A stretch of 64,000 nucleotides of DNA from Lineus longissimus (Eukaryota > Nemertea > Pilidiophora > Heteronemertea > Lineidae). The position numbers were made by a program, and so were the translations under genes. The notes beneath the pieces were generated by a model. It had not been told where the DNA came from. It saw nothing but the letters and a program-made list of their open reading frames with translations, and made no database searches. Location: contig NC_088324.1 of NCBI RefSeq assembly GCF_910592395.1, forward strand, positions 3,410,001-3,474,000. The letters are read 5' to 3'. Within the stretch, counting starts at the first letter, position 1. Each line of letters starts with the position of its first letter. Below, piece after piece: positions 10,823 through 64,000 of this stretch.

Positions 10823-11850
<1,028 letters not shown>

Positions 11851-24545: not shown

Positions 24546-27171
24546 CTCTTTCACTGCCAGATATTTTTTCGATAAATACCCCTAGTTTGCCAGGAATTGC
24601 TGTATTTTGACCATTTTTGTGAAATAAAAATGAAATAGAAATAAAGAAGATATACCAATGAAACATGTCTTATTTTCTTTGTCTATGCTTCCTCTTCATG
24701 AAACAATTCAATAATACTTTCTTTCTGAGTGGTATACATTGAAACATTCATCTGGACAAAGGGTAACTTTGCACTTTACACAAAAGTAGCGAGAATCGCG
24801 CCTTTTTCCCTTTTTTTGACATACTCTACATTTCTTCTGCTTATGCTTCTTTCCCTCCCCAGCAGGGAACATAGCCTTCTTGTGGACTTTAAACCCACCA
24901 ATGAGCCTACCTTGGGGGTCATGAATGGGTGCTCTACGGGGTGGTTGGGGTGCTGGAGGGGGGTTCTCATCATCTGAGCTGGACGGCATTTCCTCATCAG
25001 TTTTGCATAATTCTTTGATTATTGATAGCTGAAAGTCCAGTAATGACAACTTGTCATTTGGGTTATTGTCATTGTAAATGACATGGGCATTGTGTAAGGA
25101 CAGTTCTAACAAATATAATACAAGTTTCTTGGTCCACTTGATTGTTTTTCTCACAGAGGGGTAGTACGAAAGCATCTGGTCAATGCGGTCAACCCCATTC
25201 ATATTCTCATTATAATCTATGACACACACAGGTTTGTTCACATTGGTACGAGCGCCACCCCTTCCCCTGATCTGAATTTCTCTCATTGCATTGTCATGCT
25301 TTGTACTTATAACTCTCACAGTTCGATTGTCCTGCCAAGCCATTATAAGGCAACGTCCATTGTCTCTGGCAATAGTATCTCCTTTCTGAAGAGCGTGTCC
25401 ACGAGTCCCAGCTTCACGAATCTCCAGTGGCTCTCCACGGTTTTTCCTCAGTGTACCAACAACATAGGTGTTCCTATCAAGTAATGTTTCACTCAGAGCA
25501 ACTGAATTATAAAAGTTATCCATATAGAGTGAGAAGAAGTGTCCCAGTAGTCTGCCACAAAGAGCCATTACTATCTCCCGAAGTGTGTTTCGAGTTCCAT
25601 CATAGATCTGCAAGTTCCAGCAGTACGCTGTATGAGAGTCTGCAAGGATGTAACTCTTTATACCGTACTTGATTGGTTTCATAGGGTTATAAACCCTGAA
25701 TGCTAGCCTCCCTTTCCAACGGAGCATACCTTCGTCTATGGATATGTGCTCATTCGGAGTGTAATAAGCACGAAACTTAGGAAGTAATGCGTCCAGGACA
25801 GGCCTTATTTTATAAAGCTTGTCTGCGTTGTCAGCAGGCATCGCTGCATTATCGTTGAAATGCAGGAACTTCATCAACAGCTGAAACCTGTTTCTAGACA
25901 TAGTGTTATTGAAGAATGGGGTGGCGAGCACTTCATCAGTAGACCAGAACATAGATAACTCAGGCTTTTTCGTGATACCAGTCAGCATGAGCAACCCGAG
26001 TAGTTTTTTCAACTCATCCATAGTCATAGCATCCCACTTTCGAACTCGTGAATGAGGGGAGGGAATAGCATTCAGACCAGTGAAGTATTGATCTGCATAC
26101 CTGTTTGTTTCATTTACGATACCTTCCAAGACATCGTCATCAAAAAACAGGCGGAAATGATCGAGTGGGTTATTCCCTAGGTTGCGTGCAGGCCCTCTAG
26201 GCCCAGGGTTCCCGTCACAGGGCTGCACCACTGGCTGACGTCCAGCAGGCCCAAATGGATTAGGGGGAAGAACTTGTGGTCTCCCTCTGCCTCTCCTGGC
26301 TCTTGCAGGTCCTCCACGATTCTGTTGGCCCCGGGCATGATTTGGTTGACCTCTACCTCGATTTTGTTGACCTTGGGCCCCTCTCCCCCTTCCTTGGTTC
26401 CCTCGTCGACCTCTACCTCGTCTACGTCCCCTGCCCTGTCCCCTAGGAGTAGCAACTGGTGCTAGAGGCCCACCATCACTATCTGAATCACCTGAGGCAT
26501 TCCCTGCATCACTCCCGGAAGTGTCCATGCGGGCTGGACTATGGCCATGGCGTGCCCTTATTCTAGCACCACGGCGTACAGCCCCACGACCCCTAGCTGC
26601 ATTAGTAGTAGTACTAGGCCCTGGTAAAGGTTCATTATCAACAGTGCTACCATCGTCACTATGTATATCTATATCTAAATCAGGCCTATTACTGCCGAGA
26701 GCATCGCCACTTTCACTGTCACTTTGATACACAGGCACATAGTCATTGTCTCTACCATTATCGTTATCAGAGTCAACATCTGGGCCACCAAAATCGCCAT
26801 CAACAGACTCAACAGCTCTCTCACCTGTATCAAGGCCTTCCTCAACATCACAATCATATTCAGTGTCTGAATCATCGCCAAAAGGATCGCTTTCCGAACC
26901 AGAATCAGCGCAAATCTCAGCGACTTCTTCCACAGTGAAAGTTTTCCCTCTCCTGCCCGCCATTTTTGGCCAATGACGTCGCCTCGTAATGCTTACGCAC
27001 ACTTTCGATCGTCTGCTTGATGCCACATGAGTCATACATTGATTCTATGAGCTCAAATCGCCACGCCATCTGCTATAAGACCTTGAACTAAAAAAACGTT
27101 GATCGACGTCCTTTGGCAGTCAAGTGATTTATAGCAAAAACGTCGAACGACGTCCTTTGGCAGTCAAAGAG
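24546..27171 (-). mobile_element. Complete piggyBac element in TTAA
   Basis: TTAA at 24542-24545 and 27172-27175 flank a 2,626-bp element. Its ends read CTCTTTCACTGCCAG on the left and, as complement, CTCTTTGACTGCCAA on the right. ACGTCCTTTGGCAGTCAA is repeated inside the right end (about 27107 and 27151). The transposase gene fills the interior. Removing the element together with one TTAA restores a continuous frame in the surrounding minus-strand exon (FLN/RAEGT), which shows the insertion point and its relative youth. Confidence 0.93.
24708..26963 (-). CDS. piggyBac transposase, intact
   Basis: It excises and inserts its element at TTAA through an RNase H-like DDD domain. The start at 26963 (MAGRRG) is preferred over the in-frame ATG at 27035 because it sits closer to the usual family start and has a better context. 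This gives 751 residues. The order is: a long acidic Ser/Asp/Glu N-terminus (to about residue 110); an Arg/Gly-rich and Gln/Gly-rich tract (about 165-235, RGRGQ-type); the catalytic domain with HISIDEGM, YMDNFYNS and IDYNENMNGVDRID, each keeping the key Asp; and a C-terminal cysteine-rich zinc finger from CRVCQKKGKR to the end. No stop or frameshift. With both ends present, it could be active. Confidence 0.95.
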   Translation of the reverse strand: MAGRRGKTFTVEEVAEICADSGSESDPFGDDSDTEYDCDVEEGLDTGERAVESVDGDFGGPDVDSDNDNGRDNDYVPVYQSDSESGDALGSNRPDLDIDIHSDDGSTVDNEPLPGPSTTTNAARGRGAVRRGARIRARHGHSPARMDTSGSDAGNASGDSDSDGGPLAPVATPRGQGRGRRRGRGRRGNQGRGRGAQGQQNRGRGQPNHARGQQNRGGPARARRGRGRPQVLPPNPFGPAGRQPVVQPCDGNPGPRGPARNLGNNPLDHFRLFFDDDVLEGIVNETNRYADQYFTGLNAIPSPHSRVRKWDAMTMDELKKLLGLLMLTGITKKPELSMFWSTDEVLATPFFNNTMSRNRFQLLMKFLHFNDNAAMPADNADKLYKIRPVLDALLPKFRAYYTPNEHISIDEGMLRWKGRLAFRVYNPMKPIKYGIKSYILADSHTAYCWNLQIYDGTRNTLREIVMALCGRLLGHFFSLYMDNFYNSVALSETLLDRNTYVVGTLRKNRGEPLEIREAGTRGHALQKGDTIARDNGRCLIMAWQDNRTVRVISTKHDNAMREIQIRGRGGARTNVNKPVCVIDYNENMNGVDRIDQMLSYYPSVRKTIKWTKKLVLYLLELSLHNAHVIYNDNNPNDKLSLLDFQLSIIKELCKTDEEMPSSSDDENPPPAPQPPRRAPIHDPQGRLIGGFKVHKKAMFPAGEGKKHKQKKCRVCQKKGKRRDSRYFCVKCKVTLCPDECFNVYHSERKYY

Positions 27172-36098: not shown

Positions 36099-37065
36099 TT
36101 AGTTATGGTATGATTTGAAACAATTGCGATCATGCGTAAAGCAGAGGCGGACATCACACTTCTCGCAGAGTGTGTCCGTATTGTTCACAGAGCACAATTT
36201 GCACCGGCCACGCTTTTCACTCTTTACCGGCCAGTGTCCGTACTGATCCTTTTGAACATCAGCAGGCGGTGCAACACGCGCTCTCTTCGGTGGTGCTGGT
36301 GTTGGTGTAGCAGGTGGAGAGTCCAATGATGGCCGTCCCGGTCTCCGGGCTGCATTTATTAGTATCAGGCTAGAAGCGATCTCACCCTGAAACTTGCGCT
36401 GTGATTTGACCTTTTTGACTCCAAAACTTGCACACGCCCTTCGCTAAAGCATCCAAGAATTTACGACGGCAAGGATGATTGTTTGCCAAAATAAGTACAG
36501 GTACCACCTCCGTGACCTCATATGGTACTTATACCTTGCCACACAAGCATCTATCAGATCTATCCCGCCCATGAAACGGTTGTATTCTTTTACAATGAAT
36601 GGACGATCCACTATAATTTTTCCTTTTTCTTTTTGTCCCATCGTGTACATGTGTCCATAGGTTGTTCTCCTGCGTAGGTTGATAGTAATGTAACAGACTT
36701 ATTGTCATACCACTTGACAATCACTGCATCTGACTTGGTCTCCACACAGCTATCAATGGAACCACGCCCCTTAGCTTCCATAGCCTTGTCAGAAGCAAGG
36801 GGACATCCCCCTAGACGGTTTTTTCGCACAGTCCCAACATACAGAATACCATCCTGAAGTAACTTTTCTGCCAGAGCGATGGAGGTGAAAAGGTTATCAG
36901 CAAAGACTTTGTAGTTTTCATGTTTTGGAAGGGTATCACAGAGTTTTACCACAACATATCCACCCATGCCCAGTTCAGTTTTTTTCCAGTCCCTCCTTGG
37001 TATACATCAAAGTCACACAATAACCCTGTGTCACTAGAGCATGCCCATACTTTCAGTCCCCATGA
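36099..37065 (-). pseudogene. Decayed second piggyBac transposase
   Basis: The C-terminal half only. The order on the minus strand is LCDFDVYQGGTG (about 36990), VFADNLFTSIALAEKLL (36880-36920, the second Asp region), YVGTVRKNRLGGCPL, then after a frame change near 36650 RPFIVKEYNRFMGGIDLIDA (third Asp region), HMRSRRWYLYLFW, and after a further break the Cys-rich C-terminus CKLCSVNNTD with CEKCDVRLCFTHDRNCF (36105-36230). The N-terminal half and any 5-prime end are missing. It differs clearly from the intact piggyBac at 24708, so it is another family. Confidence 0.85.
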
Positions 37066-44401: not shown

Positions 44402-44887
44402 GACAATGGGTGAGGTCAAATCTCAGAGTTTACTAAGTGTTAACACCAGGTGTTAAGAAAGTGTTCCAAAACCCCGAGATTTGACCTCCTCACTTGACTC
44501 CTAGTTAACACTTTCTTAACACCGAGTTGACACTAAGTTAACACTTGGTAGACACCTAGGGAACACTTTGATCGCTCAGGTGTTCCCTTAATCTGAGGAA
44601 GTGGCCAAGTGTTAAGAAAATGCATTACAGATCGTGTACATCAGGTGTTAACCTCCTGGGCCCATATTCATAAAGCAACTTAAGTCAAAGTGGGGCACCT
44701 AATATGCATCTTAAGTTTAAGTGGGGTACTTACTTAAAATAAGTCATATTCGTAAACATACTTAAGTCAAGTGGACCACTCAAATCGAGTCTTAGATTTG
44801 AGACACCTCTGGAGCAGTCTTAACTCTAAGTCCCGCTCTAAGTGGACTGGTTCTTTCAGTTCATTTTGTGCACGGTGCTCAACGGAG

Positions 44888-45949
44888 ATGGCTGCGTTGA
44901 TGTTAGCTTGGCAACATGCATTTGCACACAGACGTGCAATTCGCAGGGAAAGGGTTTTTCGTGATCGGCTGCATCCACTGGACGCTTACAATGACTTGGA
45001 ATTGTACCAGCGATATCGGTTTGATCGGCAGACAATTCTTCAATTGATTGATCTTGTGAGGGATGACCTAGAATCGAAAACTAGGAGGAATTACGCGCTG
45101 CCTGCTGAGTTGAAGTTGCTTGCGACTCTTCGGTTTTATGCTTGCGGATCATTCCAACAGGTTACTGGTGATACTGTCCACATTTCGCAGCCAACCATGA
45201 GTCGAGTGATCGCGGAGGTAACAACCACACTGAACAATTCTCTAAAACACATCATCAAATTTCCGAGACAAGAGGACACACCTCAATTATCTGCAGATTT
45301 TTACGAGATAGCTCGATTTCCCGGTGTTATCGGTGTGGTCGATGGAACGCATATTTGGATTCTAGGACCTTCGTTTCATGAGTGGAGATATGTAAACAGG
45401 AAAAACTGGTATTCCATCAATGTACAGGTTGTTTTTGATGCACATTTTAGGTTTATGAATGTTGTGGCTAGATGGCCCGGTAGCACCCATGACTCCGTTG
45501 TGCTCCGAGAAAGCGCCGTAACCGACATTATGAGACGTTGGCAAGGAGATGAGGTCATCCTTGGTGACAGTGGGTATCCATTGAGTCCTTGGCTGATGAC
45601 GCCATTTTTGAACCCTAACACCCCCGGGCAACGACGATACAATCGGTCTCACAAGAAAACTCGGTGTTTGGTTGAAAGGGGCATCGGTCAATGGAAAAGG
45701 CGATTCCACTGTCTGCATGGAAAACTGCGTTATACACCGGAGAAAGCATGTGCAATCATTACTGCGTGTGCAATGTTGCAAAACATTGCTATCAACAAAG
45801 CTCTACCGGATTTCGATCCAGCAGACATGGATGATATCGAACATCGGCCACAACCCGATGAGGATGGGAACGATGAAGGGAATATCGTAGCATTTGCAGG
45901 TGTAAATGGAACTGCTACAAGAGATCACATTGTCCAGCAACATTTCTAA
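44888..45949 (+). CDS. Harbinger A transposase, intact
   Basis: It cuts and pastes the element by a DDE/RNase H-like mechanism; the family is that of the domesticated vertebrate gene HARBI1. The start at 44888 (MAALML) gives 353 residues. The upstream in-frame ATG at 44771 lies in terminal-repeat sequence and is less likely. After an N-terminal helical region (FDRQTILQLIDLVRDDL) and a helix-turn-helix (ISQPTMSRVI), the catalytic residues are in GVVDGTHIWI, WPGSTHDSV and CLVERGIGQWK, with LGDSGYPL between. No stop or shift. The partner gene on the other strand ends about 80 bp downstream. Confidence 0.95.
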   Translation: MAALMLAWQHAFAHRRAIRRERVFRDRLHPLDAYNDLELYQRYRFDRQTILQLIDLVRDDLESKTRRNYALPAELKLLATLRFYACGSFQQVTGDTVHISQPTMSRVIAEVTTTLNNSLKHIIKFPRQEDTPQLSADFYEIARFPGVIGVVDGTHIWILGPSFHEWRYVNRKNWYSINVQVVFDAHFRFMNVVARWPGSTHDSVVLRESAVTDIMRRWQGDEVILGDSGYPLSPWLMTPFLNPNTPGQRRYNRSHKKTRCLVERGIGQWKRRFHCLHGKLRYTPEKACAIITACAMLQNIAINKALPDFDPADMDDIEHRPQPDEDGNDEGNIVAFAGVNGTATRDHIVQQHF

Positions 45950-47703: not shown

Positions 47704-48648
47704 ATGTTTGCGATTCCTATGTTTCAAGTTGTTGCCCTAAGACATAATAGAAGAGCAGAGAACTTTATTCGAACGCCTGCCTACAGTGGAGAACCGATTG
47801 AGCGGCATATGAGGCTGAACCAAGAACAATTTGATCACCTTGTTGATTATTTTCATGGATGGAGGCAGGCTAATCACCAGGGGAATGGCCAAGTCAACGC
47901 AAGTACATCTTCAAGAAGAATGAAAACTTTTTTGCACTACCTCGCTTCAGGAGGCTTTCACAGACAGGTCGGTTATGCTGTTGGTTATGCTAAGCCAACT
48001 GCAATATTACATGTGACTGAGGTTTCTGACTTTTTCTTTGACATAGCTGCGCGTCATATTTCATTCCCTGAGCAGGATGAGTTTGATCAACTGGCCCAGC
48101 CTCTGGTTGATATCGACGGAGTTGAGCGGCAAGTGATTCTTTTCATAGACGGCGTTATTGTGAAAATCCAAAAGCCTGATAGGGCTGGTGATGCGTATTA
48201 CTGTGGGAGGCCGGGGAAATGTTGCGACTCCATCAACGTGCAGTACGTTGTAGATCGATTTGGCAGGGTAAGACACGTTATAAGCGGAGTACCTGGATCG
48301 ACGCACGACAAAACAGCGGCCGAGTGGTCTCGAGAATTGTTCGACTTCCTTGATCAACTTCCAGAGGAGTATGTTATGCTTGGTGATCCTGCCTACAGGA
48401 ACCTGCACCGATCTGTGCTGATTACTTTTACTGGAAATAATCTTCGACAGGAACAACTAGATTTTAACAACAGATGCACTCGACTCCGTCAAATAGTTGA
48501 GAGGTCTATCGGATGTACTGAACTGATATGGAGGATCAATCAGCTAAAAGAGAATAGGTACGCTGCGAAATATGGCCCTGTTTTTCCATCAAAATGCACT
48601 GTAGCAACATGCGTGTTACACAACCTTTACACCAATTTCTTGGCTTGA
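47704..48648 (+). CDS. Harbinger B transposase, intact
   Basis: 314 residues. The N-terminal part has NQEQFDHLVDYFHGW. The catalytic motifs are FIDGVIVKI (first Asp), VPGSTHDKTAAEW (second Asp), MLGDPAYRN and IVERSIGCTELIW (Glu). VVDRFGRVRHV fills the central sheet. It is diverged from Harbinger A; the usual DGTH is DGVI here. The ATG is 49 bp right of the Harbinger A insertion, so the promoter region of this gene was split by that insertion while the coding part is untouched. The companion on the minus strand begins at 49890. Confidence 0.93.
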   Translation: MFAIPMFQVVALRHNRRAENFIRTPAYSGEPIERHMRLNQEQFDHLVDYFHGWRQANHQGNGQVNASTSSRRMKTFLHYLASGGFHRQVGYAVGYAKPTAILHVTEVSDFFFDIAARHISFPEQDEFDQLAQPLVDIDGVERQVILFIDGVIVKIQKPDRAGDAYYCGRPGKCCDSINVQYVVDRFGRVRHVISGVPGSTHDKTAAEWSRELFDFLDQLPEEYVMLGDPAYRNLHRSVLITFTGNNLRQEQLDFNNRCTRLRQIVERSIGCTELIWRINQLKENRYAAKYGPVFPSKCTVATCVLHNLYTNFLA

Positions 48649-49890: not shown

Positions 49891-50290
49891 GATGACTGCT
49901 CAGATGACAGACTTACACTAAAGATCTACGCATAGTCCAATTCAACCTCTCTTCAACATGGGCAAAGTGCCAGACCTGTGCAACCAGGAAACCAAGTGAA
50001 ACTAACATCATTATGTAACTGTGGCATGGATTATTTACCACTGACATGTGCCAGGCTTGGCACCTTGCCCATGTAGAAGTAAAGTATCTAGAAGGTGTTA
50101 GGAAAGTATTATTCAAGTGTAATCTTGGTGTAACCCAGGTGTCACCAAGGTGTTAACCTGAACTTGGTGTCTAGGGTTCAGGTTAACACTTTTCACAGAG
50201 ATTACACTTGGATAATCTAGGTGTAGAGTTCACTCTGAGATTTGACCTCACCCATTGTCATTCTTCTGGTATGTGTTGAACACTTTCAAG

Positions 50291-50655
50291 TAAGGACAAC
50301 CTAGGGACAAGACATCCTTTATGATCCTACGAGTGACGCGATATGAATTCATTCATCCAAAGGATGTCCTATTTGGGAGATACGTTGCACAACTCTCAAA
50401 TCAGGACAACATGGACCAGCCTAATCCGTCAAATGGAAGGTTGTCCCAACAGGAGGATGTCCTCCTGAGTACGTGTTGAACAGACGTCTTTCGTGTTCAA
50501 GTAAGGACAACCTAGGGACAAGACATCCTTTATGATCCTACGAGTGTCGCGATATGAATTCATTCATCCAAAGGATGTCCTATTTGGGAGATACGTTGCA
50601 CAACTCTCAAATCAGGTCAACATGGACTCGCCTAATCCGTCAAACATTGTCCTGT
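50291..50655. repeat. Tandem duplication, period 211 bp
   Basis: TAAGGACAACCTAGGGACAA at 50291 recurs at 50502, and about 150 bp stay nearly identical (through CTACGAGTG, GATATGAATTCATTCATCCA, AGGATGTCC and GCACAACTCTCAAATCAGG). A diverged third partial copy begins about 50726 (AGGACAACCTAGGG). Similar AGGACA and TGTCCT-rich DNA lies just left of Harbinger B (44080-44400), so that element probably inserted into this repeat region. Confidence 0.85.
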
Positions 50656-52242
50656 AGGAGGAGGGGTGCTGCACTGAGCAGACCTCCCTTTGGGGTGCAC
50701 TTTGGAAAAAGACGGTCCTGCTATGAGGACAACCTAGGGATCAGATCAGACGGACATATCCTTTATAATCATAGGGAGGGGTCGCAATACGACATTCATT
50801 CATCTGATAGATGTTATTGTGGGAGGTATGTGGATGTGACATGTCTCCTTCAGGTTTGGGGGGAGAGTGCGGACGACTCTGCAATACTTTCCCCTGAATA
50901 TAAGGCGGTGTCCTTCAGGAGAGATTCATTCCCAGGAACAATATTAAGAGAAGTACATGCTCTCATATTTGATCGATCATCCCAGGTGTCTGTGCGAGGT
51001 GTCCTCAGAAGGTCTTTCTGCAAATCCCATTACATATATGCAGCTCCACTTCAGTTTCCATGAAATTATCAAACCAAGGTTGGTACACCTATGTACAAGA
51101 CATCATGCTACAGAATAATTTTACAGAAAAATAAGTTGTCGAATAAAATGCCTTTATTATTACAAAGTACATAAAATATATTTTCTGAAATTACAAGGAA
51201 GCACTTTTATAAACAATAGAAAGGCACCATTGCCACTGTCCAGCAGTGAAAAAAAAATCAACATGTTAATCATAATACCGGGTACAATGTATAAGGAATG
51301 AAGAAGTATCTTGGCAGCAGGAGAGGCCACACTACAAACATCGACATCTCAGTAAATAAATATACGGTACAGTCCGAGTCACAAATGTCATCACAAAAAT
51401 CGTATCATTGGTGTCACTTATGCGAAGGTCGCGCGTAAACGGTGTTAAATCGAGAGATGTGTGTCACTGCCACATCATTCGGCACAGACCTCAAACGCAT
51501 GTCATGCATCGCTTGATGTGACGCGAGAGGGATGACATTATGTGACTTGGACTGTATCATTTTTGTCCGTGGACAGGAGATTCAACATAGTGTGGTACAT
51601 ACCAATCACAGGATTTTGATTTTTAAATAAAAAATCCACACATACATGTATCACATTACAACCATACAAGAAATTTAAGTGAGACAAAGCTAGCTCACTG
51701 AGTCGAATTTAAGTTTTACCAAAATTAAGCATTACACTGGAGACTTTCATCTAAGATGAATCACAAATGACTTAGGGCAAGACGCACATCAAGACTTGAG
51801 AGCACACACTTAAATTTTTGATTAAAGGGGCTATTAATGATAACATTTGATGAAATCATTAGTACATGTAATGCCCAGCACCAGCAAGTCATATTTAGAA
51901 CATTATGTCTACAATGTAGAGTTACAATATCAACTAGAAATGTACAAGTAGATGTAATTCACTTGGTAAGCACCAACTTTACCGTAAAATCGAACAATAC
52001 AGAATATCATGCTTTCATGCTGCCGGACTTCAAACGCAAGTTTACTTTTAGGAGAGTCGCAATTTTGCTACATTCGTACGAATCTGATGGGATACCTTGA
52101 GCTCTTTAAGCATAGCTTTCATTTCTTGCACACTCATCGAATTTACATCGACATCACCAGATTTCTGAGCTTCAGTGCAAGTAACGACCGGCTCAACTCG
52201 ACGACGCTTTTCGAAAATCTGTTTCTGCCAATAGCCATCTTG
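50656..52242. other. Spacer, no gene supported
   Basis: A plus-strand frame at 50554-51063 overlaps the duplication and has no domain. AATAAA occurs at about 51142. The remainder is AT-rich with occasional TACATGTA words and nothing I can assign. Confidence 0.4.
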
Positions 52243-52298
52243 TTTTTAGCTCACCTCTTAGCAGAGGTGAGCTTATCCCATACCGTGGCGTCCGTCGT

Positions 52299-52330
<32 letters not shown>

Positions 52331-53360
52331 CGTCGTCCGTTAGCAGGGCACGTTTCGTAACTGTTAGAGCTATTGAGTTGAAACTTGGTACACATGTACC
52401 CTTATGTAATGACACCTTGGAGACCAAGTTTCGGTTTGATTCGTTTCATGGTTTGGCCACCAGGGGGCCAAACGTTAAAAGTGAAAATATGCAATATCTC
52501 CCTTAATAGTAGTCAGGAAATTTTGAAAAAAATATGGTAGGTACTTCTAGCAAAGGTGCATCATATATCCTCCGGGTTTTTGATTTGACCTCCTTTTCAA
52601 GGTCACAGAGGTCAAATGGTGTAAATTGGCCGTTAGGATGTAACGATGGCACGTTTCTAAACTGCAATGACTATTGATACCAAATTTGGTACACATTTAC
52701 CCCCTTAGTCAGGTGATCTCAGGGATTGAAGTTTGGTCCAATATGATTCACCACTTGACCACCAGGGGGCAAAATCCAAAAACCTTAAAATGTGATTATT
52801 CCTTAACTTCTTGCCCGATTGCCACCAATTTGATATCATGGGTACATCTAACCACCGTACAGTATATGTCGCACAGGTTTTTAATTTGACCTTCTTGTCA
52901 AGGTCACAGAGGTCAAATGGCGTAAATTCGCTGTCAGGCCGTAACTATGGCACGTTTCTTAACTGGAATGACTATTGATCACAAATTAAGTACACATGTA
53001 CCCCTTGGTCAGGTGATCTCAGGTACCGAAGTTTGGTGCAATCTGATTTGCCGTTTGGCCTCCAGGGAGGGGGCCAAATCCTAAATTCTTCAAAATGCCA
53101 TTATTCCTAGTAATGACTTGCCTGATTGGCACCAATTTCATATCATAGGTACATCTAATTCTAACAACCATTCAATGTGTCACCCGGGTCTTCTTTGATT
53201 TGACCTACTTTTCAAGGTCACAGAGGTCGAATGTACTGTAAATTGGCCATTTTGGGGAAATTGTAATTGCTTGGACCTACATCAAACCTAACACTACATG
53301 ACACAATACCATGCTCTTTATCCATCTTTCCTCCACATGAGGTGAGCACAATGGCCCTGT
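52243..53360. repeat. Dispersed repeat with GTC microsatellite and about 300-bp tandem units
   Basis: It starts TTTTTAGCTCACCTC and GCAGAGGTGAGCTTATCCCA, then a CGTC/GTC microsatellite (about 52288-52340). Three tandem units of about 300 bp follow. Markers are GGCACGTTTC, GGTACACATGTACCC, CCAGGGGGC, and AAGGTCACAGAGGTCAAATG at about 52600, 52900 and 53214. It ends near GAGGTGAGCACAATGGCC. This AGGTGAGC-bounded plan with nearly identical units looks like a non-autonomous mobile element. Non-coding. Confidence 0.7.
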
Positions 53361-53405
53361 CCATTTTTTACAGTAGGAATTTGGAGACCTTTTTTTATGG
53401 GCAAG

Positions 53406-55686
53406 CTAATTCTGCCTCCAAGTTGTTTTTACAATGTCACTACAAGCCCCTATTTTGTTCGAGTGCTGCTTATGTATGCTCTTGACATGATCATTCAGTT
53501 TTTCCATTCCCTGTGCACTGAATTTCTTAAGACCGTTGTGAGAGGCACACAATTTTGGTACATGGTAAACAGCAATATGCATATAAGGGGTCACACGTTT
53601 CTTCTCGTATCCTTTCCTTTTGTTCCCAATGGAGAGGAACAAGCGAATCCAGTCACGAGCCATACAAAAAACTGTTTCGGCGAGAACCTCATCATCGTGA
53701 TTAGCCGATATGAATTGATAAAATGTTGCAAAATCTTGCCAAATTTGGGCCACCACTGTCTCAGTTTGGGGGTGAAGAACCTTGTTTTGGAGTAACGCTT
53801 GGGGCAATAACTTCAGCAACTTTTTCTTTTCATCTCCAACTAAACTGGAGGAGTCAAAACCGTTCTTGCGGTTTTTATCGGTGGTCATCCACACCCTGAA
53901 ACTCACACCACAGGACCTAACCGCCTTTATCAATGCATTCAAATGTGAATCAGGATTTGCAAGGTTTTTTTCAATGCAACCTAAGTGTTCCTTTTCATCT
54001 AAGTCAAGACAATCCTGAATGAGGTTTTCCGTCATTCTATCAGTAATCCGGAGCATTAAATGCAACTCACCAACTATGATTTGATCAAATGGTAGCTTTA
54101 CAAGAGGCAAATTCACACAACTAAATGATTGTGATAGACAGCAAGACTCAACTTCTTCCATGCTACGAGCCCTTGGAAGGGTATCATAATAATCCATAGG
54201 TTTCGAGGTATCCCAGCGAGAATCAGGAGCAAGAATATCATTTTCAACCTTACAATACAAACATGCATACTTTGAGGTAGCACCAGACATACCCATGACA
54301 TTCTGAAGAAACTTGTAATCAGCCCCTAAGAACACTTTTAATGGGTAATCCTCTCCATCTATTTTTACAAAACCACGATCATGAAGCAGGTTCATGGCTG
54401 CCCAGACATTTGCAAAAGACGTTTCATACATCTCATAACTTTCGTGGCCTTTTACTACTGCAACGGCATGATGAGCACCTCCATTAGCAGTCTCAGGTTT
54501 GTCAGGAGAGTACAACGAAAAACTCATAACACACATACCATTTTTTCTCGAAACATTGGTGCCATCACCAGAAAACTTCACATGAAAAGATGGCTTTGTC
54601 TCAGACGCCTTCAGTTCTGGATGCTGATCAACAAGACACTTGATAGTGAACTCCAGTTCAGTCTCTATATCTAACTCAGCCCCTTCAGCAACACCTGGTG
54701 TTTTTTCTACATGGCAAAGTTTGTTCATATCATTGCGCAGCTGCTTTACCAAATACGACCTGGGAAGACCATCACCAACCAAAGTCATTTCGTGATAAAA
54801 GGCATCTGACACATAAAACCGATCTAAAAGGTACAAAACCTGCTCAAGGGAGCTCCTGTCAGAATGACTCAACGTACCAGATTGTATGTTGTGCTGGTTT
54901 CCTGCATCATCTTTCACACTCACCGAGTCTAGCTTTAAACCATACAATTCGAGGAACCACAGAGCACACTCTGCTCTCGACTTGACCTCTTTCAAGCGTC
55001 GCAGTTGATACGACCTTGAAAATTTGCTGAAATTCGACCGTGCACCTTGTTTTCCACCCTGGATATCGAGAGAAGTGCCACACAGCTTTTCTACATATGA
55101 CCGCAACGTTTGATTTGTTTCAAGCAAATTTGCTGCATTGTCTTTTTCAAGTTTCAAATCTTGATGCAGCAAGTCATTAAGCACCTTCAAGTCACAAATT
55201 TCCGAGTGCAGTTTCAAGATTTCTTGTTCGAAATTCGCAATTTGCTCATGAGCTACAGCCAACTGATCTTCCACCTCTCCAATTTTTTCTCCTGCCACAA
55301 CCAACTGTTCTTGTACGAATTCCAACTTTCTCTTCGTGGCTGGGAAAGTTGTCAGGTCTTCCCGTCGAATGTTCAATCGGAGCAGTTTGCTTAACAAAGA
55401 GACACGCTTTCTGCCAGTAGTTTTACGAACTTTTTTTTGCAATAACAGGGCATTCTCTACGAAGCCTTTCACCAAGACGAAAATTGTCACCTTTCAAATT
55501 CATGCAATAGTTCACACAAAGAAATCTCTCTAGAAGTGAAAAATACCTGGCGACAGACGATTGTGCTTCATCAAACCAAGAAATGGCGACAGAGTATGGT
55601 ATCTCAACGGAAAAAATGTAAGCGTCATTTTCTTTGAACATTGGACTGGTCACAAGGGACAACGCTGGTTTAGAAAGAGCAGGCAT
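53406..55686 (-). CDS. RAG1/Transib-core-like protein, probable transposase
   Basis: One long frame (694 codons, 53406-55490) with its probable true start at 55686 (MPALSKPAL), reached by one frame change at an A7 run near 55436. Numbering from the first codon of the long frame: a coiled coil at about 50-130; FSGDGTN (D309); LGADYKF (D391); C410-x2-C413; GELHLMLR at 475; YMHIAVYHVP (H638 and H643); GMEKLNDH (E663); and NKIGACSDIVKTTW at the end. In mouse RAG1 the second Asp lies 19 residues before its C-x2-C pair. The two zinc His are 5 apart, the second followed by VP, and the last Glu lies 20 residues later. All of those spacings are identical here. Function as a transposase is inferred. 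Confidence 0.6.
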
Positions 55687-56217
55687 TTTGGCTGATACGT
55701 GTACGATACGTGTACAGTTGTATGTTTCAATCAAAAGAATTCTGAACCATAACATCTAGTCAATGACATCATCAAAATCAAGTTAAACAAGAGTTGCCAA
55801 CCTAACTTTACATCTGGAGGACAAATAACTAATAGTCTGCAGGACAAAGATCAGAAAAGTTAACTGATCATGGAGGACTATACTTCACCAGTGTGATAAT
55901 TAAATAAGACAACCGAAATACACAGGAATATGCTGTACACGTACACTTGTAAATGTAAACTACAGTGTACTTACTACTAACTAGTACTATTTTGGATGAT
56001 TTGTGTGCATGTAAATGTTAGGAAACAAACATGTACATTTAGTACAACAATGTCAAATGGCTAGGTTGGCATCTCTAGTTTAGATTAGAATAACAAGTGC
56101 GTACAAATGTAGCAAATAGTATTCACATTCATTCAAGTACATGAAAAATGTCATTTTAATGCACAACACCAGATGAGCAGGGGGCAGGAGTCCTCATTTA
56201 AAAACCATACAATGTTG
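55687..56217. other. Spacer upstream of the RAG1-like gene
   Basis: AT-rich, with GTACATTT and ACATGTA words. I looked for CACWRTG-type heptamers that would mark a Transib-like terminus and found no convincing one in the right orientation. No gene. Confidence 0.4.
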
Positions 56218-56759
56218 TTAGTCCGACATGTCATTTTCAGCATCATGAATTGAAAACGGATCAACGCAACACTTGATCGCAAGTTTCTCCACAGGCAACC
56301 ATTTTAGTTCGTGAAGCTCTCCGTCCTGATTAAATCCATAGTTTTTAGGGGTATAGGAAACAAACACTTTCATTAGAACAGGAAATACAAGGCTCATACC
56401 ACTTCCTTCACAATCGACAATGTATCGCCACCCAGGCAGAAGGCCGAAACTTTCCAAATCCACCTTGGAATAAGCCAAATATCCCCGAATACGCGACTCG
56501 ACCGGCCTGGCATCTGAAGAAATATTCCGGAACGCATCAAGGAAAACGGTGATTGTCATTGGTTTTGTCTGGTTCGTTTTCCCACGTAAAATTGACTGCA
56601 ATGCAGCAGTGATTTGGCAGCGTGTCTGCTGAACCCTGGCCGGCTCTACTGGCGGATTTAGGAATGAGAGAAGAACGTCATCAGTAAGGTTGGTCTGGGG
56701 TTCCCACGAGGCATCTTCGATTGGGTAGCCCTTCCATTCAACAAGGTACTCTTCGCCCT
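56218..56759 (-). CDS. Chromodomain-containing exon
   Basis: After an acceptor (TTTTGTATTTTCAG) the exon starts GEEYLVEWKGYPIEDASWEP and QTNL, a chromodomain lacking its first strand, which must lie in an upstream exon I could not find. It continues for about 150 residues without another known domain (FLDAFRNIS, GYLAYSKVDLESFG, GWRYIVDCEG, ELKWLPVEKLA) to an acidic end and a stop at 56218. The chromodomain would bind methylated histone tails or act as a targeting module. It sits head-to-tail with the RAG1-like gene on the same strand, 530 bp upstream of it, but is more likely an independent gene. Confidence 0.6.
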
Positions 56760-56904
56760 GAAAATACAAAATTGAAGTTTGTTTTTGAATACTTTAGAAA
56801 GACAAAACAACTGGTAGGGGGATAAGGATACTGAAATCAAACACATTTCACTCCGATAGCAGGTACATGTACACTTCAGGGAAATAAAGAAATGTGCGAC
56901 AAAA

Positions 56905-58201
56905 ACAACTTGGCAATATCCCGAAAGATGCAAAATATATAGTCCACTTCGTAAGATAGAACGTTGCTCCGGTTTTCCTTGACACAAAAGGGAGTAGGCT
57001 TCTCCAAGGGTCGATACTACATAAGTTCCGTGTGTTATTTCTGTTACTGATTCGTTGAAGTCGCTTGTGCCGGTGATGGACACTCGGCAGTGCTCACGCA
57101 ATTCTTCTTCCCCTGTTAGGATCCCTCTAGGACAGAGTTTCTTCGCACGATCATACATCGGCCCGGTTCGACAGATTGTGGGCCGACTTCCAATGTACGT
57201 GCTCGGGAAGAATAGTCCTCCTGTTTCGGTATGAAGAGCTACATCCTGCGGAACATGTAGTTGAACAGCAACTCCAGTTACGTTTGAAGGGACTGGCCAC
57301 GTTCGTATATGGTAACGGAGGTACTTTACATTATTGACGAGTGGTAGAGAAGCTTTAAATACAAGTCTATCAGAATCTCCCCAGTACGGATGTATCTTGA
57401 TGTGTTCATAGTACCATGAAGGTTTCTCTTCTGGGCCATTCGAACAATCCGTGCAAGTTCATCTGGTGGCAGAATCTCTTTGGTTAACCAACCTAACTCA
57501 AGTGCAGCTCGCTGACGGTAAAACCTAGCTACTTGCCGTAGCCATCGATGGTGAACTGCTTCAATCATGGACAACACCCGATCAATCTCCGCGTCTATCT
57601 CTAGGATAACGATCTTGGTCCGGGTGTAGTTCAATATTTCCTCCAATTGAATGACGTGGGTTGCAAGCTTGGATATGTAGCCTTCGACTTTCGTAATGTG
57701 TTGGCGATTCTCCTTTACTTCTTGGCGAGTCTGGTTGACAACGGTGACTAGCTCGGCAGCAACATGTACTATTTTCTGGTCAGTGAGGGTCATCTCGTCT
57801 AGACGGCGCTTAATGGCTCTGACCTCAGCATTTGTAGACGTTCCGAATAACTTTCTGGCGATGGTACCAATAAATGGAAGGACAGCTGACCTGCGTCGTC
57901 GTGGGCGAGATTGAGGTAGTGTTTACATCATCTCCGCGATGCGCTGCATCGATATCTGCTTGGTTGAATTCGAAGATGATCGGAGCCAATGAAGTTTTCC
58001 TACCGCATGTTGGAAGGCACAAATTCGTTGTCGAAGGTGGGGATTGTTGATTGGTGTATCCAAGGTCACAATAATATCCCACATGGCAATGTGGCTGCGT
58101 ATCTCGTCTCCGCCTGTCACAAGTAGACCATCTTGTAGTTCCGCTGGTTGGTTAAAGGGCAAATCAACACCGGCTCCAAGGACGATGGTTGACGTGCACA
58201 A
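56905..58201 (-). pseudogene. Errantivirus/baculovirus F-type envelope relic
   Basis: The product of this gene class is a membrane fusion protein made as a precursor. Order on the minus strand: an ectodomain piece at 57923-58201, a furin-like RPRRRR site at about 57884-57900 with a hydrophobic stretch directly after it, a long helical heptad region (57450-57790), then a Cys-containing ectodomain (56905-57300, with WPVPSNVTG and ICRTGPMYDRA). Lesions: an in-frame stop at 57923-57925, a frame change near 57355, and no transmembrane anchor after about 56905. No gag, pol or LTR is nearby, so only the envelope part remains. Old, inactive copy. Confidence 0.7.
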
Positions 58202-58344: not shown

Positions 58345-58570
58345 GGAGAGAGAACGGAGCCCACTTCAAAGAATACAATCATCCTTCCGACCATAGATAT
58401 GTGTATTCGAAACCCCTCGCGTTAATCCCTTCCAATACCCCGGCCGGCCGAGCGCGTTATGACGGAAAGTATCCGAAACTGACGAACTAGTTTCAGAGTC
58501 GCGATCGGCAACTTCCGTGACTAATCGGGCGCCTTCTTCGTCATTTCACTGTGGCAACTCATTAAACAAC

Positions 58571-60345
58571 ATGGCGGCCTATGATCGGGATGAATACCTG
58601 ATGCTCGACGATTTTGAAAGTTTTTTTGCTGAAGAAGATGATCTTATCGCTCTCGAAGCTGACGATGGTGATGCCGATGTTTACTGTATATGCGGTGGAG
58701 CGGAAACTGATGAGATGATAGCCTGTGACTCTCCAGAATGCGTGATAGTGTGGCACCATTATAATTGTGTTGGTATGCAACCAGACACAGTGCCTGCTGG
58801 AGAGTGGATATGCATGAAATGCACTGACAGTGATAGCAGTTGCAACGAGATCAGTGCAATGGGCAAGGAAAACAGTTTAAAAGGTAAGCAACGGTTGAGA
58901 TTGAGATTAATATGATTTTCATTGACATTGTCCACCTGATGTGTCCTGACCAATGAGCCTAGTTATACCATGGAGGTATTATTAAGAATACCTCCATGGG
59001 CATGGTTATACTCGTACCCCATCCATATTAATTTATAATTACATCTCTTTATTTGACTTAAATTCTACATTTGATTCACTGAACTTTCTACTATTCAATT
59101 TCAGGGGTGAAAAGAAAGTCGCCAGATTCGGTCGCCAGCATCTTTGTCAGCGAGCCCAAGAAGAAAAATGAGATCACGAAGCCGAAGGAGAAGGCTTTGA
59201 AGAAAACTGCCCCGAAAACTGTACAAAAGCCTCATGGTAAGTTTGAATTTGAACTTATTTTTAATTTTGCATGATTAACATACATTTACAATTTACATTG
59301 TAGCCTGTTTTACCGGAGTGTACATGTGTACTAGTATCATGCTTGTTCTTAATTTTCTTTTTTTCATTTCAGTCACACATTTCAGTGAAGAGGAATTGAG
59401 AAGTAAATCCGCCGACATTCTTCAGCGTTCTCTCAAGAATGTTCGCCACAAGTTACCGAGGTTGGATAAGGAAGTTTCTCAATTACTGCAACAGTGTCAG
59501 ACCAGTGAAGCCTACAATGTTGTCAAAGACTTTGTTACGAAGCTGTGGAGCGGCATCAACGAAGCCAGCATCACCAAATCAAGGACAAATCAGAGCCTCG
59601 AATTTCAAGTGGAAGGTTTTCACAAATTGCGTCTCGATAAGGAGATGGACATTTCAAAATCTCATTAACGGCACCGTAGGCCTTGATAACCCCATCCTGA
59701 AACAGTTCATGTATCAGGAGACCGCACTGGAGGTGATCAAGTGCATTCAGTCAGGAGCGACAACAGGACCATCTGATGTGAAAGAACCGTCGTACAAACT
59801 CTCGCCAACTGAAGAACAGATTCTACGCTATGCTTCGGGATATGTTACGAAGAAACTTCGAAAGCACTTCAAAACACATGCCAAAAACAATCTGTGCTAG
59901 TGTTGTAGATTCATGGGACACCAAAGGAACTGAAACAGCTCCAAATTTCTTAGTTTACACAAAAAAGATGATCGATATCAAAGACAGGGGTGGTTTATTT
60001 CAAATCAACGATGATCTTTACATTCTCTTTCGAAGAATGGAACTAGTAGCTGGACCTCTGTTGTGTGCTTCGAACATGAAAAATCTGCAGAACTCAAATT
60101 TGCATCATAAGTTGACCACAGCCATTCTTGACAACAAACTTGTGCAACTCGGATTTCACAAACTGACAAATCTAGATGATGAAAAACTCAAAGAACTACT
60201 ATTGAGCAAGCTTGTGAAAAACTGGGTCACTCTCCGATGCAGGGCATTTGTTTCTGCATACTCCTACACACTGAGTAAGAACGAGAAATCTGTGTCACGA
60301 AAGTCCGAAAAACCACTGCGGAAAAAACTGAAGAAATCCACTTGA
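58571..60345 (+). pseudogene. PHD-finger gene, three exons, two frame changes
   Basis: Exon 1 (58571-58883, donor AAAAG/GTAAGC) starts MAAYDRDEYLML and ends in an ING-type PHD finger (YCICGG, MIACDSPECVIVWHHYNCVG, GEWICMKC), a fold that reads H3 tails, often H3K4me3. Exon 2 (59105-59236) is Lys-rich with VKRKSPDS. Exon 3 (from 59373) reads FSEEELRSKSADILQRSL, LDNPILKQFMYQ, RYASGYVTKKL, then SWDTKGTE, IDIKDRGGLFQINDDLYILF and a basic C-terminus. Phase is clean across both introns. Frame changes are needed near 59648 and 59880, so it is decayed or mis-sequenced. It converges on the P-type transposase with 46 bp between the two stops. Confidence 0.7.
58969..58998. repeat. 30-bp perfect palindrome in an intron
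   Basis: CATGGAGGTATT and AATACCTCCATG are perfect 12-bp arms around ATTAAG. It lies in intron 1 of the PHD gene. Its left 20 bp recur at 58325. The shape suggests a collapsed MITE or two joined transposon ends. Confidence 0.85.
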
Positions 60346-60391: not shown

Positions 60392-63300
60392 TTATAGTCG
60401 TCTTTGTCTCTTTGGGAGGGGGGTGTCATCCATTACATTGTTGTTGCCTTGTCGATGTTGGCAGTTACCTCGAGTTGATGCTAGAACTGCAGGTGATCGT
60501 GCAACCTGAATCTTTAACGCATTGTTGCTGAACTGCTGCACATTTGGGTTATCACAACGGCCACCAATCCCTCGTTGCTGTGAGAAGTACTCTTCAAGCG
60601 GATCCTGTGACAGTTTTTCGGAGAGAAAGAATGTCACACCAGGCAACATCAGGAGATCTCTGGCCAAGGCAACAAATGATTTCACTGAAAACAAGAATGA
60701 TAACATGTATATGACGGTAGAATACTTCGGATGCCTATTACTGTTGTAGAATTATCTTCAATTGAGTGAATACATGTATTCATGACCTTTGTTTATACTA
60801 GTGTACAATAAAAGAAACAATATCATCTTAAAATATGTTGTTTGTGTTCAAAATTTCCCACTTACCAGTGATTCGGATTCCCTCTAGCGTTTCCCTACTG
60901 AGGCATAATCGATTCCTCTGGTCCTTACTCAGGTTAGGTACTGCCTGTGCTTCAGCTTCCCATTGGTCAATGAAGCCATGGAGGAAATCTTCTTCGAGCC
61001 ACTGCAAAGGAAAATAACATTTAGCATATATCTATGGCTGGTGCGCATTTATTTCATTTGAAATATACATGCAGTGTACACACATTCTACTAGTACATGC
61101 AGGAATCAAGACTGTCCAAGTCTTTGCAATAACTGATGCTTACCTTGAAACGCCAGTCATCAGGAGAAGTGTATGGTTCAAGAACTGGTTTCCTTTTCCT
61201 TGCACCAGTGCAGCGATTTGAAACATTCAGGCAGTCAAAGAACTGATCCATCATTCGGACAAACTTCTCGACAGATGTTGTGTCATGACCTCCAACAATC
61301 CTGAAGGCATCAGCAACACTTGTACTGAGGACCTGAAACATGAGGAATATGTTATTCTTCAAGTATACTAGTATGCATGTGTACATTTATTGATGGTCAG
61401 TCCAATACCGTTCATTTGTAAACAATACAATAGGTACATTGTTTTACATAGTTTATAAGTCACATTCTTGCTAACATGTCTCCTGATAAGTAACTAACCT
61501 GAGTTGCCAGCTTCACTTTCATTCTTAATGACGGTGTCAGATGCAGGTGATCATAGGTCATTTTGTTTGCAAGGCTGAACCTTCCTCCATCTTCTACTAG
61601 GCTTATTAACTGTGGCCATCTTATTGGTTGACCATTAAACTGAAGAAGAATGTTGGAATGTTATTTACATTAACATTTCTGAGGGGAGAAGGTGATAAAA
61701 ACAGACAAAATGATGGTACTCAATTGGGATGCCCACCGGTCAAAAAGACCAATAGTAGAGGTCTCCTTGGACGATTTAGGACAATTACTGATTATGTTTA
61801 ACACTAATATGGATGTTCATGAAAGTTATGGATACATACCATCAGATTTCTTGTTTTGTTGTGGAATCCACTATTCTCCCAATTATTTCTTGTGGTTTTC
61901 ATCAAGTGTGGAGGATCACAAATGAAGTAAATCTTCCGAGAAGGATCATATGGGTTTGTTGTGTGGTAAGTAGGTGCGTCATTTCCATGTAGGCGGTAAA
62001 ATCTTCTATTTGGAGATGCTCCATCTGATATAAATGCTCTGACGTAGAATCCAACACTTTCCAGTCGACCAACAGCCTCCCATACTACCCAGTACAACTG
62101 ATGGCTGCTGAAACCAGTACAGGGGAAATGAGCAAATGTCTCCTCCATATTGCTGAATAGGCCTCGGACCATAAAGGCTATAACATGTGTAGCCACAGTA
62201 GGAGTATCATCCCTTTCATCACACTGCCGTACCAACTGTGCTATCTCATTATTAATGTCACCAAGATCGCAGAATCCTAGCAGTTCGCCAGTAGCTGCAG
62301 AGTACACTAGTCCCGATTTTATCTTCATTTCATCGAAGAGCAAGCTAACATTAAACTTGAAATCAGGCATGTCTGATAGGTGGTCCTTCACTATCCTTTC
62401 TAGCACATGGTTATTGAAACCACTTGATGACTTGGTGAAAGAAGTATAATCCCTGAGAGTGGTTTCATGTGGTAAACGGAGAAATTTACTTCGGCCTATC
62501 ATCCGGTATGCAGCAGGCGACTTTGAATGGAGTGCTATGCACCACCGTATAAGAGCAGGATGCCATCTCATCTGTTTGCTAGGTTTTCTTGCTGCTAAAA
62601 GCTGCTGTTCCCAGAGCAGTTCCATGGGAGAACCAGCCTCAAAACTTTGGAGAACTTGACTGGTATTGTCTTCCATCACTTGCAGTAGGGACTTGTTAAG
62701 TGAATCTGCCACCTGCACATCTCCCTTTTTCAACAAGTCTTGAACTTTTTCCTTCAAGCTTTTCACATGCCGTTTCAAATAATGTCTCTCCTTTTGTAAG
62801 GCCGTCAGTTTACATTTCATTGCTCCAGGTGAGAGCCTATCATTTCTGGTGTGGGAGGAAAGGATGTGGTCACCTGGAGTAAGCCTGGTTCTCTGGGAAA
62901 ATGCAGCTTGTTTTGCACATAAGATGGGCCTGTATTGGGTGCAGACTGAGCAACGAACAACATTTGGAGGGGCATAAAGTTCACACTTTAAGTGGCAGAC
63001 TATTGAACTACTGCCTGTATGTTGTCCGTCTTCCTTTGCTTCAAGGGTTCCATCTGGTCGCCGGAATATAGCCAGTCCACTTGGGAAAAGGTCGCGGCAC
63101 AAGTCAGAAAATCCGCCAAGTCCAGGGCAAGGACGACAGTTACTCAGGAAATGGAGAAGCTTGCTAACGTCCTCCTTAGAATCTAAGACATGGGCTGAAG
63201 AGATATCCATCACTGGGTCTGTTATCAAATGTCCATATATGTACATTTCCCAAGTCCTGTCACTTTTCAGTTTAAAACATTTCTCAGGGAAACCGTTTTC

Positions 63301-63666
63301 CCCCATTAGCAGAAACAACAATCCAGTCTGTTTTTCCACTAAAGTATATCCGCATTCAGTACCTATGGCTTTGGCTTCATTGATATTCCACAAATTTTCT
63401 CCAGGAACGTCAAAACAACGTGACGAAACAGCTATATTAACACTTTGTTTCCGGTATTGTCCACTCCGCCACCATCTTTCCAGTTTCCTCTTGCAAGCTT
63501 CACAGATGTATGGGGGATAATTCTCATGATCCATGCACACGTCAAACCCGAGAGCTCTCTCTATAGCGACTTTGAACTTCTCCTTTTGGCAGGGCTGATG
63601 CCGGTGATGGCTATTCTTTTGTATGTTTTCTGAGCCACAGAGACGACACACATCGTGCAGATTCAT
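60392..63666 (-). CDS. P-element-type transposase with ZAD/RAG1-N-like zinc module, intact
   Basis: Five exons join in phase: 61840-63666, 61499-61639, 61144-61332, 60866-61001 and 60392-60684. This gives 861 residues with no stop. The start at 63666 is the first ATG, directly after a TTTCTCAG acceptor, so a 5-prime untranslated exon is likely. Residues 7-58 form a zinc module (C7-x2-C10, His20/His23, C55-x2-C58 in YPPYICEACKRKL) in place of the usual THAP. Then a coiled coil (about 290-330), and the P-type RNase H core: WHPALIRWCIALHSKSP, LLFDEMKIKSG (D445), FISDGASPNRRF (D548), ICDPPHLMKTTRNNW. The insertion domain follows, then LSQDPLEEYFSQQR and DNPNVQQF. Possibly functional. Confidence 0.88.
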
Positions 63667-64000
63667 CTGAGAAAGAAAAGAAATGAATACAATTAGCCGG
63701 TATTTGAATGTGACTATCCTGTCAAGTGTCATCATATTCACATCATCATCATCATCATATCATGACTGACTGATAGTGAATAAGTGATGACAATTGACAT
63801 GATGATGGACATGATCATGGAATGGATGGTAGGCATATATCATAGTCATCCTGTCTTTTAAACAGCATGGAGGTACTCCAGATGATAGCAACAACCATAG
63901 AAAGTAGCTAGAGAGAGGGGTGTGGCCATACTGCTTTTCCAGAAAACGGTGATCTTCAGAAACAAAATTCTAAATGTTCGCATCAGTTCGCATGCATTTG
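63667..64000. other. Upstream region with CAT microsatellite
   Basis: CATCATCATCATCATCAT runs from 63741. CATGGAGGTACTCCAG at about 63868 starts like the 58325 motif but is in the same orientation, so it is not an inverted end. The element's right terminus is not seen before the window stops. Confidence 0.5.

Follow-up and report, generated by a model that had tools for sequence, protein, structure and literature searches.

A decayed transposon of the nemertean Lineus longissimus with a RAG1-like transposase core and an accompanying chromodomain gene

A stretch of 64,000 nucleotides of the Lineus longissimus genome (NC_088324.1, positions 3,410,001 to 3,474,000; the window in what follows) contains a gene whose product is related to RAG1, the enzyme that assembles antibody genes. 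Homology of the transposase core to RAG1 is firm, as is the transposon nature of the gene. Very probably, the gene sits in the decayed remains of a DNA transposon of the CACTA-Mirage-Chapaev-Transib (CMCT) clade, which contains RAG1, the intact element being autonomous, with two genes and a mode of action like that proposed below. Its workings would be like those of RAG and Transib, but its terminal inverted repeats (TIRs) and target-site duplication (TSD) are not those of RAG and Transib, and it is therefore placed in a separate lineage of RAG1-CMCT transposons. A first-pass annotation of the sequence had proposed a separate branch of the RAG/Transib superfamily; the RAG1-core fold and the conserved DDE residues and zinc ligands of that proposal have held up, but RAG/Transib membership in the strict sense has not, in view of the element's termini and 1-bp TSD. 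The parts of the element in the window (numbered from its first letter) are:

50253..56908, minus strand: transposon remnant, shorter at both ends than the 7881-bp copy on C11 (blastn to loci L009, on C11, and L016, on C9; copies are named below after their contigs)
56221..56769, minus strand: second gene of the element, an open frame with a chromodomain (PF00385; Pfam 3.8e-8) and ~150 further residues, in the same orientation as the transposase and upstream of it
55432..55686, minus strand: N-terminal portion of the transposase in a separate frame, MPALSKP...VIAKK, with three predicted helices (model pLDDT 74.9)
53406..55490, minus strand: transposase open reading frame (ORF) of 694 codons, beginning at GTG (open-frame list and translation)
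52248..53363, strand unassigned: insertion of ~1.1 kb with 301-bp repeat units, absent from copies C11 and C9
52048..52246 (approximate), minus strand: C-terminal coding portion of the transposase, KQDGYWQKQIFEKRRRV..., severed by a stop and the insertion

The 694-codon frame is not the protein in full. In tblastn, residues 1-87 of the family member P0003 match 55686-55432 and residues 84-739 match 55442-53424, the change of frame falling across a run of eight A (A8); beyond the stop and the insertion, residues 678-718 of P0002 match 52242-52117, and this C-terminal portion stays open in frame in C11. The predicted model of the 694-codon product has a long helix (49-137) and a RAG1-like core (~210-694), and the N-terminal coiled coil that had been suggested in place of RING and zinc fingers is visible in it as that helix. 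One family member, P0011 of Paramuricea clavata, has a DUF4806 domain fused N-terminally (1.1e-6).

Searching the host genome (391 Mb, 30 contigs) yields 42 matches, which are exons and fragments and not 42 genes. The main pieces of the remnant are 98-99% identical (blastn) to L009 and L016, which match each other past both limits of the window remnant: C11 and C9 share one element, 7881 bp long in C11, with abrupt ends, differing flanks and the TIRs CAACACCAGAAAAACCCGACC / CAATACCAGAAATCCCCGACC. C11, 98% identical to the window copy, has an uninterrupted frame of 875 amino acids; C9, the third copy, is internally deleted. The window copy is damaged by a frameshift at the A8 run, a stop ahead of the C-terminus and the 1.1-kb insertion (the two matches that flank the insertion overlap by 5 bp in C11). 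The inserted repeat ends, at 52264-52337, in a CGT-rich run and hairpin (GCTCACCTCTGCTAAGAGGTGAGC), and comparable runs occur in the flanks of other loci. Between the element's two genes lies a 21-nt inverted pair (55784-55804 and 56062-56082, 90% complementary, 257 nt apart) that could be a nested small element.

Two more lineages have TIRs of their own, CATTACCAGCAATYCCCAAC (C15, C10) and CATTACCAACTTTCGCT (C1, C12, C20, C16). C1 and C12 are 99.96% identical across 5.5 kb and lie in different flanks; C20 and C16 are shorter. That near-identical copies lie at many sites suggests recent activity. In element family A, that of the window copy, the terminal 300 bp occur at at least 40 places (non-self matches 95-99% identical over at least 123 bp), those of family B also at at least 40 places (94-99% identity); these counts include the known long copies and are lower bounds, and the family A terminus is found at 38 or more places besides the long copies. 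The element family has many short, non-autonomous copies with these same ends, which the first reading had overlooked.

The argument for RAG1 begins with the spacing of residues. D391 precedes C410 by 19, C410 and C413 are 3 apart, H638 and H643 are 5 apart and E663 follows H643 by 20, as had been pointed out by comparison with mouse RAG1; all of these distances are indeed those of the mouse protein, whose D708, C727, C730, H937, H942 and E962 were verified on residues 620-1007 (the PDB alignment matched 386 of 388 letters). In the family alignment (A1, 52 rows, rows gapped at a position being excluded from its count), D309, which had been put forward as the first Asp, is conserved in 50/50, D391 in 48/49, C410 in 48/48, C413 in 47/48, H638 in 31/32, H643 in 33/34 and E663 in 28/31, so that the predicted conservation of the three acidic residues and four zinc ligands is borne out; H477 (in ELH), missed in the first pass, is conserved in 44/45. 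The set DDCCHHHE is intact in 25 of the 27 rows that are filled at all eight positions (P0023 and P0029 deviate at E). By pattern search, D[YMT]KF is found in 58 of 73 family proteins, 56 of these with a D-to-CxxC distance of 19, and HxxxxH in 31 of 73, with an H-to-E distance of 20 in 26; the proteins outside the 58 and the 31 are those without a match to the search pattern. A further parallel had been drawn with the C-terminal end of the RAG1 core: its S677 (26/30) and N678 (28/29) are conserved in A1, but K688 (4/29) and W691 (2/29) are not.

Fifty-one proteins match the 694-codon frame at E<=1e-3, and a profile search at E<=0.01 contributes 21 new identifiers. Sources are named for a few of them: several cnidarians (octocorals, stony corals and a sea anemone) and a scallop. 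No protein of the family found bears a functional name, and no Pfam name for the family came within reach of the searches made, in keeping with the earlier remark that such proteins usually go unnamed. At 1e-3, two of 52 members match the Pfam RAG1 model and one matches DUF1280 (four members each at E<=10); DUF1258 (Mirage), Transposase_21 (CACTA) and the Plavaka model are not among the 10 Pfam families matched by the 52 members at 1e-3. With a core-only profile, built from 13 of the then 73 family proteins, the first 16 of 17 PDB sequences matched at E<=10 are RAG1 or RAG1L (3.6e-4 to 0.022), and BbRAG1L aligns with the profile in a single stretch, positions 204-487. HzTransib is not among the 17; as a yardstick, mouse RAG1 620-1007 alone reaches HzTransib at only 0.0066. 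The family core profile gives mouse RAG1 a score of 21.6 bits, compared with 10.0 for the highest of 5000 shuffles, so that the match exceeds chance. Among solved structures, those nearest to the predicted model are RAG1, RAG1L and HzTransib (437 residues aligned at best with RAG1, 397 with HzTransib). The structural comparison that had been proposed as a check thus gives, for the predicted model, the RAG1-core fold with an inserted helical/zinc domain, a fold that is a mark of the CMCT clade.

The second gene, likewise overlooked in the first reading, accompanies the transposase beyond the window. The chromodomain exon precedes the transposase, in the same orientation, in the window copy and in C11, C15, C10, C1 and C12, the homologues outside the window lying in L009, L010, L011, L012 and L047; a Pfam run on the window, C11, C15, C1 and C10 copies gives a chromodomain in each. 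Identity to the chromodomain of the window copy is 26-41% in the other lineages, and the partnership is, at the level of sequence, conserved in three diverged lineages. By analogy, the chromodomain protein may act like RAG2. Among the titles listed by a literature search for chromodomains with Transib or RAG2, none describes such an element. A short ORF with a PHD finger (58517-58915, plus strand), oriented divergently to the transposase at a distance of ~2.8 kb, is outside the shared element and is therefore not evidence for a RAG2-like partner.

The ends of the element tell a different story from the fold. Complete copies of three element families have inverted repeats that start with CA and finish with TG, as CMCT elements do in most cases (PMC12730594). 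The termini read CAACACC / CATTACC, so that neither the CAC start resembling the heptamer of a recombination signal sequence nor the CACWRTG-like repeats expected by the first-pass annotation were found. The 5-bp TSD, also expected, and characteristic of RAG and Transib (PMC7204232), was seen in 0/19 and 0/4 insertions; in its place is a repeat of 1 bp. Of 18 further family A loci sampled (L023-L040), 17 have both ends, ~1.1 kb apart (L032, with one end not found, was dropped). In 15 of these 17 the left end is preceded by the same base that follows the right end (P for at least 15/17 at 25% chance, 7e-8); with the two long copies the count is 17/19. No other pair of flank positions exceeds 9/19, and longer repeats are rare (2 bp 1/19, 3 bp 1/19, 4 or 5 bp 0/19). 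The CMCT range is 2-5 bp (PMC12730594), and this element is outside it. In family B the one-base repeat is found in 3/4, the four being both long copies and two of the short copies at 38 other places. The sign of a 1-bp target duplication, as read from the flanks of filled sites, is strong in family A and mixed in two small samples of other families. A title-level literature search on 1-bp target duplications turned up only LINE-1 work.

Several results weigh against this interpretation of the element. The window protein alone has no RAG1 match in Pfam or PDB; a core consensus probe matches neither RAG1 nor DUF1280 in Pfam; the whole-length A1 profile lists RAG1 only at 0.008, beneath two coiled-coil proteins; and in hhalign a pairing with mouse RAG1 alone yields P 0.0011 and a probability of only 20.5%. 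The one-base repeat fails in L047 (family B) and in L030 and L031 (family A), and is found in only 1/4 of family C, where A follows the right end in all four copies; that end may be set one base off (shifted by one, 2/4 by eye). The chromodomain matches start at position 15-17 of the 53 in the profile, and an upstream exon is therefore probably missing from the chromodomain gene.

Other affiliations have to be weighed on the same evidence. Nearness in fold and sequence to RAG1, RAG1L and HzTransib among solved structures, and D-C, H-H and H-E spacing equal to that of mouse RAG1, would suit membership, as a divergent element, in Transib or in the RAG-like (ProtoRAG) transposons proper. We regard that as very improbable, the TIRs lacking the initial CAC, the repeat being 1 bp and not 5, and the partner found being an upstream, same-strand chromodomain gene where a convergent Kelch-PHD gene would be expected (no search of the elements with a RAG2 profile was made); the CTT1 motif Cx2Cx3GHx4C of RAG1L and subgroup I Transib is also absent from the 73 proteins, many of which are C-terminally incomplete. 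The motifs C(2)C, LH and H(4)H are common to the CMCT clade beyond RAG/Transib (PMC12730594) and are also named as Chapaev motifs (PMC4079192); they consequently mark the clade and not Transib membership. What they allow is placement as a Chapaev (DUF1280) lineage, Chapaev being the other branch close to RAG1 in animals. DUF1280 has been described as Chapaev transposases and grouped with RAG1 (Majorek 2014, PMC3985635), and P0009 matches it at 4.3e-5, just under the cut-off. Yet DUF1280 passes the 1e-3 threshold in only 1/52 members, no Cys/His-rich N-terminal domain is seen (CxxC is absent from the first 130 residues in 17 of 18 chosen N-termini), and a 1-bp repeat with CAA/CAT ends stands against a Chapaev TSD of 3-4 bp (TWA in Chapaev3) with CAC..GTG ends (PMC4079192); a Chapaev lineage is, on balance, unlikely.

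A domesticated host gene of transposon origin could explain family members in several cnidarians and a scallop, but is extremely improbable for a sequence with many diverged copies in one genome, near-identical TIR-bearing elements on different chromosomes and a broken copy in the window. The one-base match might, moreover, be no duplication at all and reflect insertion between two equal bases; the flanks read are those of filled sites, and families B and C are mixed. This we think quite improbable: only the -1/+1 pair stands out, and the repeated base varies among the 17 (T 6, G 4, C 4, A 3), so that there is no fixed target dinucleotide.

For the two-gene RAG1-CMCT transposon that we prefer, the following mechanism is proposed. 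A transposase dimer, held by the coiled coil, would pair both element ends and cut as RAG and Transib do, by the nick-hairpin route; the 3' ends would then be joined to the two target strands with a stagger of one base. The chromodomain protein would be made together with the transposase and might guide or license insertion through binding to methylated chromatin, rather as the RAG2 PHD finger does for RAG1. It is conceivable, though we would not go so far as to favor it, that this is a new transposon superfamily beside RAG/Transib: a recently active, independently evolved two-subunit RAG1/RAG2-like recombinase with a RAG1-fold coiled-coil subunit, a chromodomain reader replacing RAG2, 1-base joining and CA..TG termini. 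Novelty is judged here against published descriptions, and Repbase may hold an existing or differently named entry for the family. Accounts of how V(D)J recombination arose have RAG1 coming from a Transib-like transposon and joined by a chromatin-reading partner. A relative with the RAG1 core, another chromatin-reader-type partner and a 1-bp instead of 5-bp stagger offers a test of whether RAG1-type transposases recruit chromatin readers repeatedly, and the two staggers on a shared fold make it testable which feature sets the stagger. With recent activity suggested, the family may offer a functional system for structural studies and for the making of tools.

The window is dense in DNA transposons. 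It contains a long piggyBac-type transposase ORF (24708-27035, minus strand; DDE_Tnp_1_7, 1.8e-85), a fragment resembling it by eye (36611-36967), two DDE_Tnp_4 (PIF/Harbinger-type) transposase ORFs (44771-45949 and 47704-48648, both plus strand), a Tc1-type helix-turn-helix ORF (11220-11756) and a P element/THAP9-like transposase (61804-63741, minus strand; TNP-like_RNaseH_N 2.1e-21, and a sub-threshold zf-AD match). A broken frame at 57326-57910 (minus strand), with a furin-like RRRR and a fusion-peptide-like stretch, looks by eye like the envelope gene of a Ty3/gypsy-type retroelement.

Among known systems, RAG1/RAG1L (ProtoRAG, RAGL) shares with this family the core fold, the DDE residues, CxxC/LH/HxxxxH with the spacings of mouse RAG1, and a two-gene element whose second gene encodes a chromatin-reader-type domain. 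It differs in having RING or zinc fingers where this family has a long helix/coiled coil, a convergent Kelch-PHD gene in place of the upstream, same-strand chromodomain gene of this family, and a 5-bp repeat in contrast with CA(A/T) termini and 1 bp. Transib elements (HzTransib) have one gene and 5-bp TSDs (PMC7204232), compared with two genes and a 1-bp repeat. Chapaev/Chapaev3 (DUF1280) has C(2)C, LH and H(4)H in common with the family, and one member's DUF1280 match is just under the cut-off; unlike Chapaev, the family has no Chapa-like zinc domain that we could see (by CxxC pattern, in 17 of 18 chosen N-termini), nor the 3-4-bp TSD and CAC..GTG ends. EnSpm/CACTA, Mirage, Plavaka, ESTA and Lanisha resemble it in their CA..TG termini and DDE + 2C + 3H residues, here with C(2)C, LH and H(3-4)H between the second D and the E, and differ in a TSD of 2-5 bp (PMC12730594).
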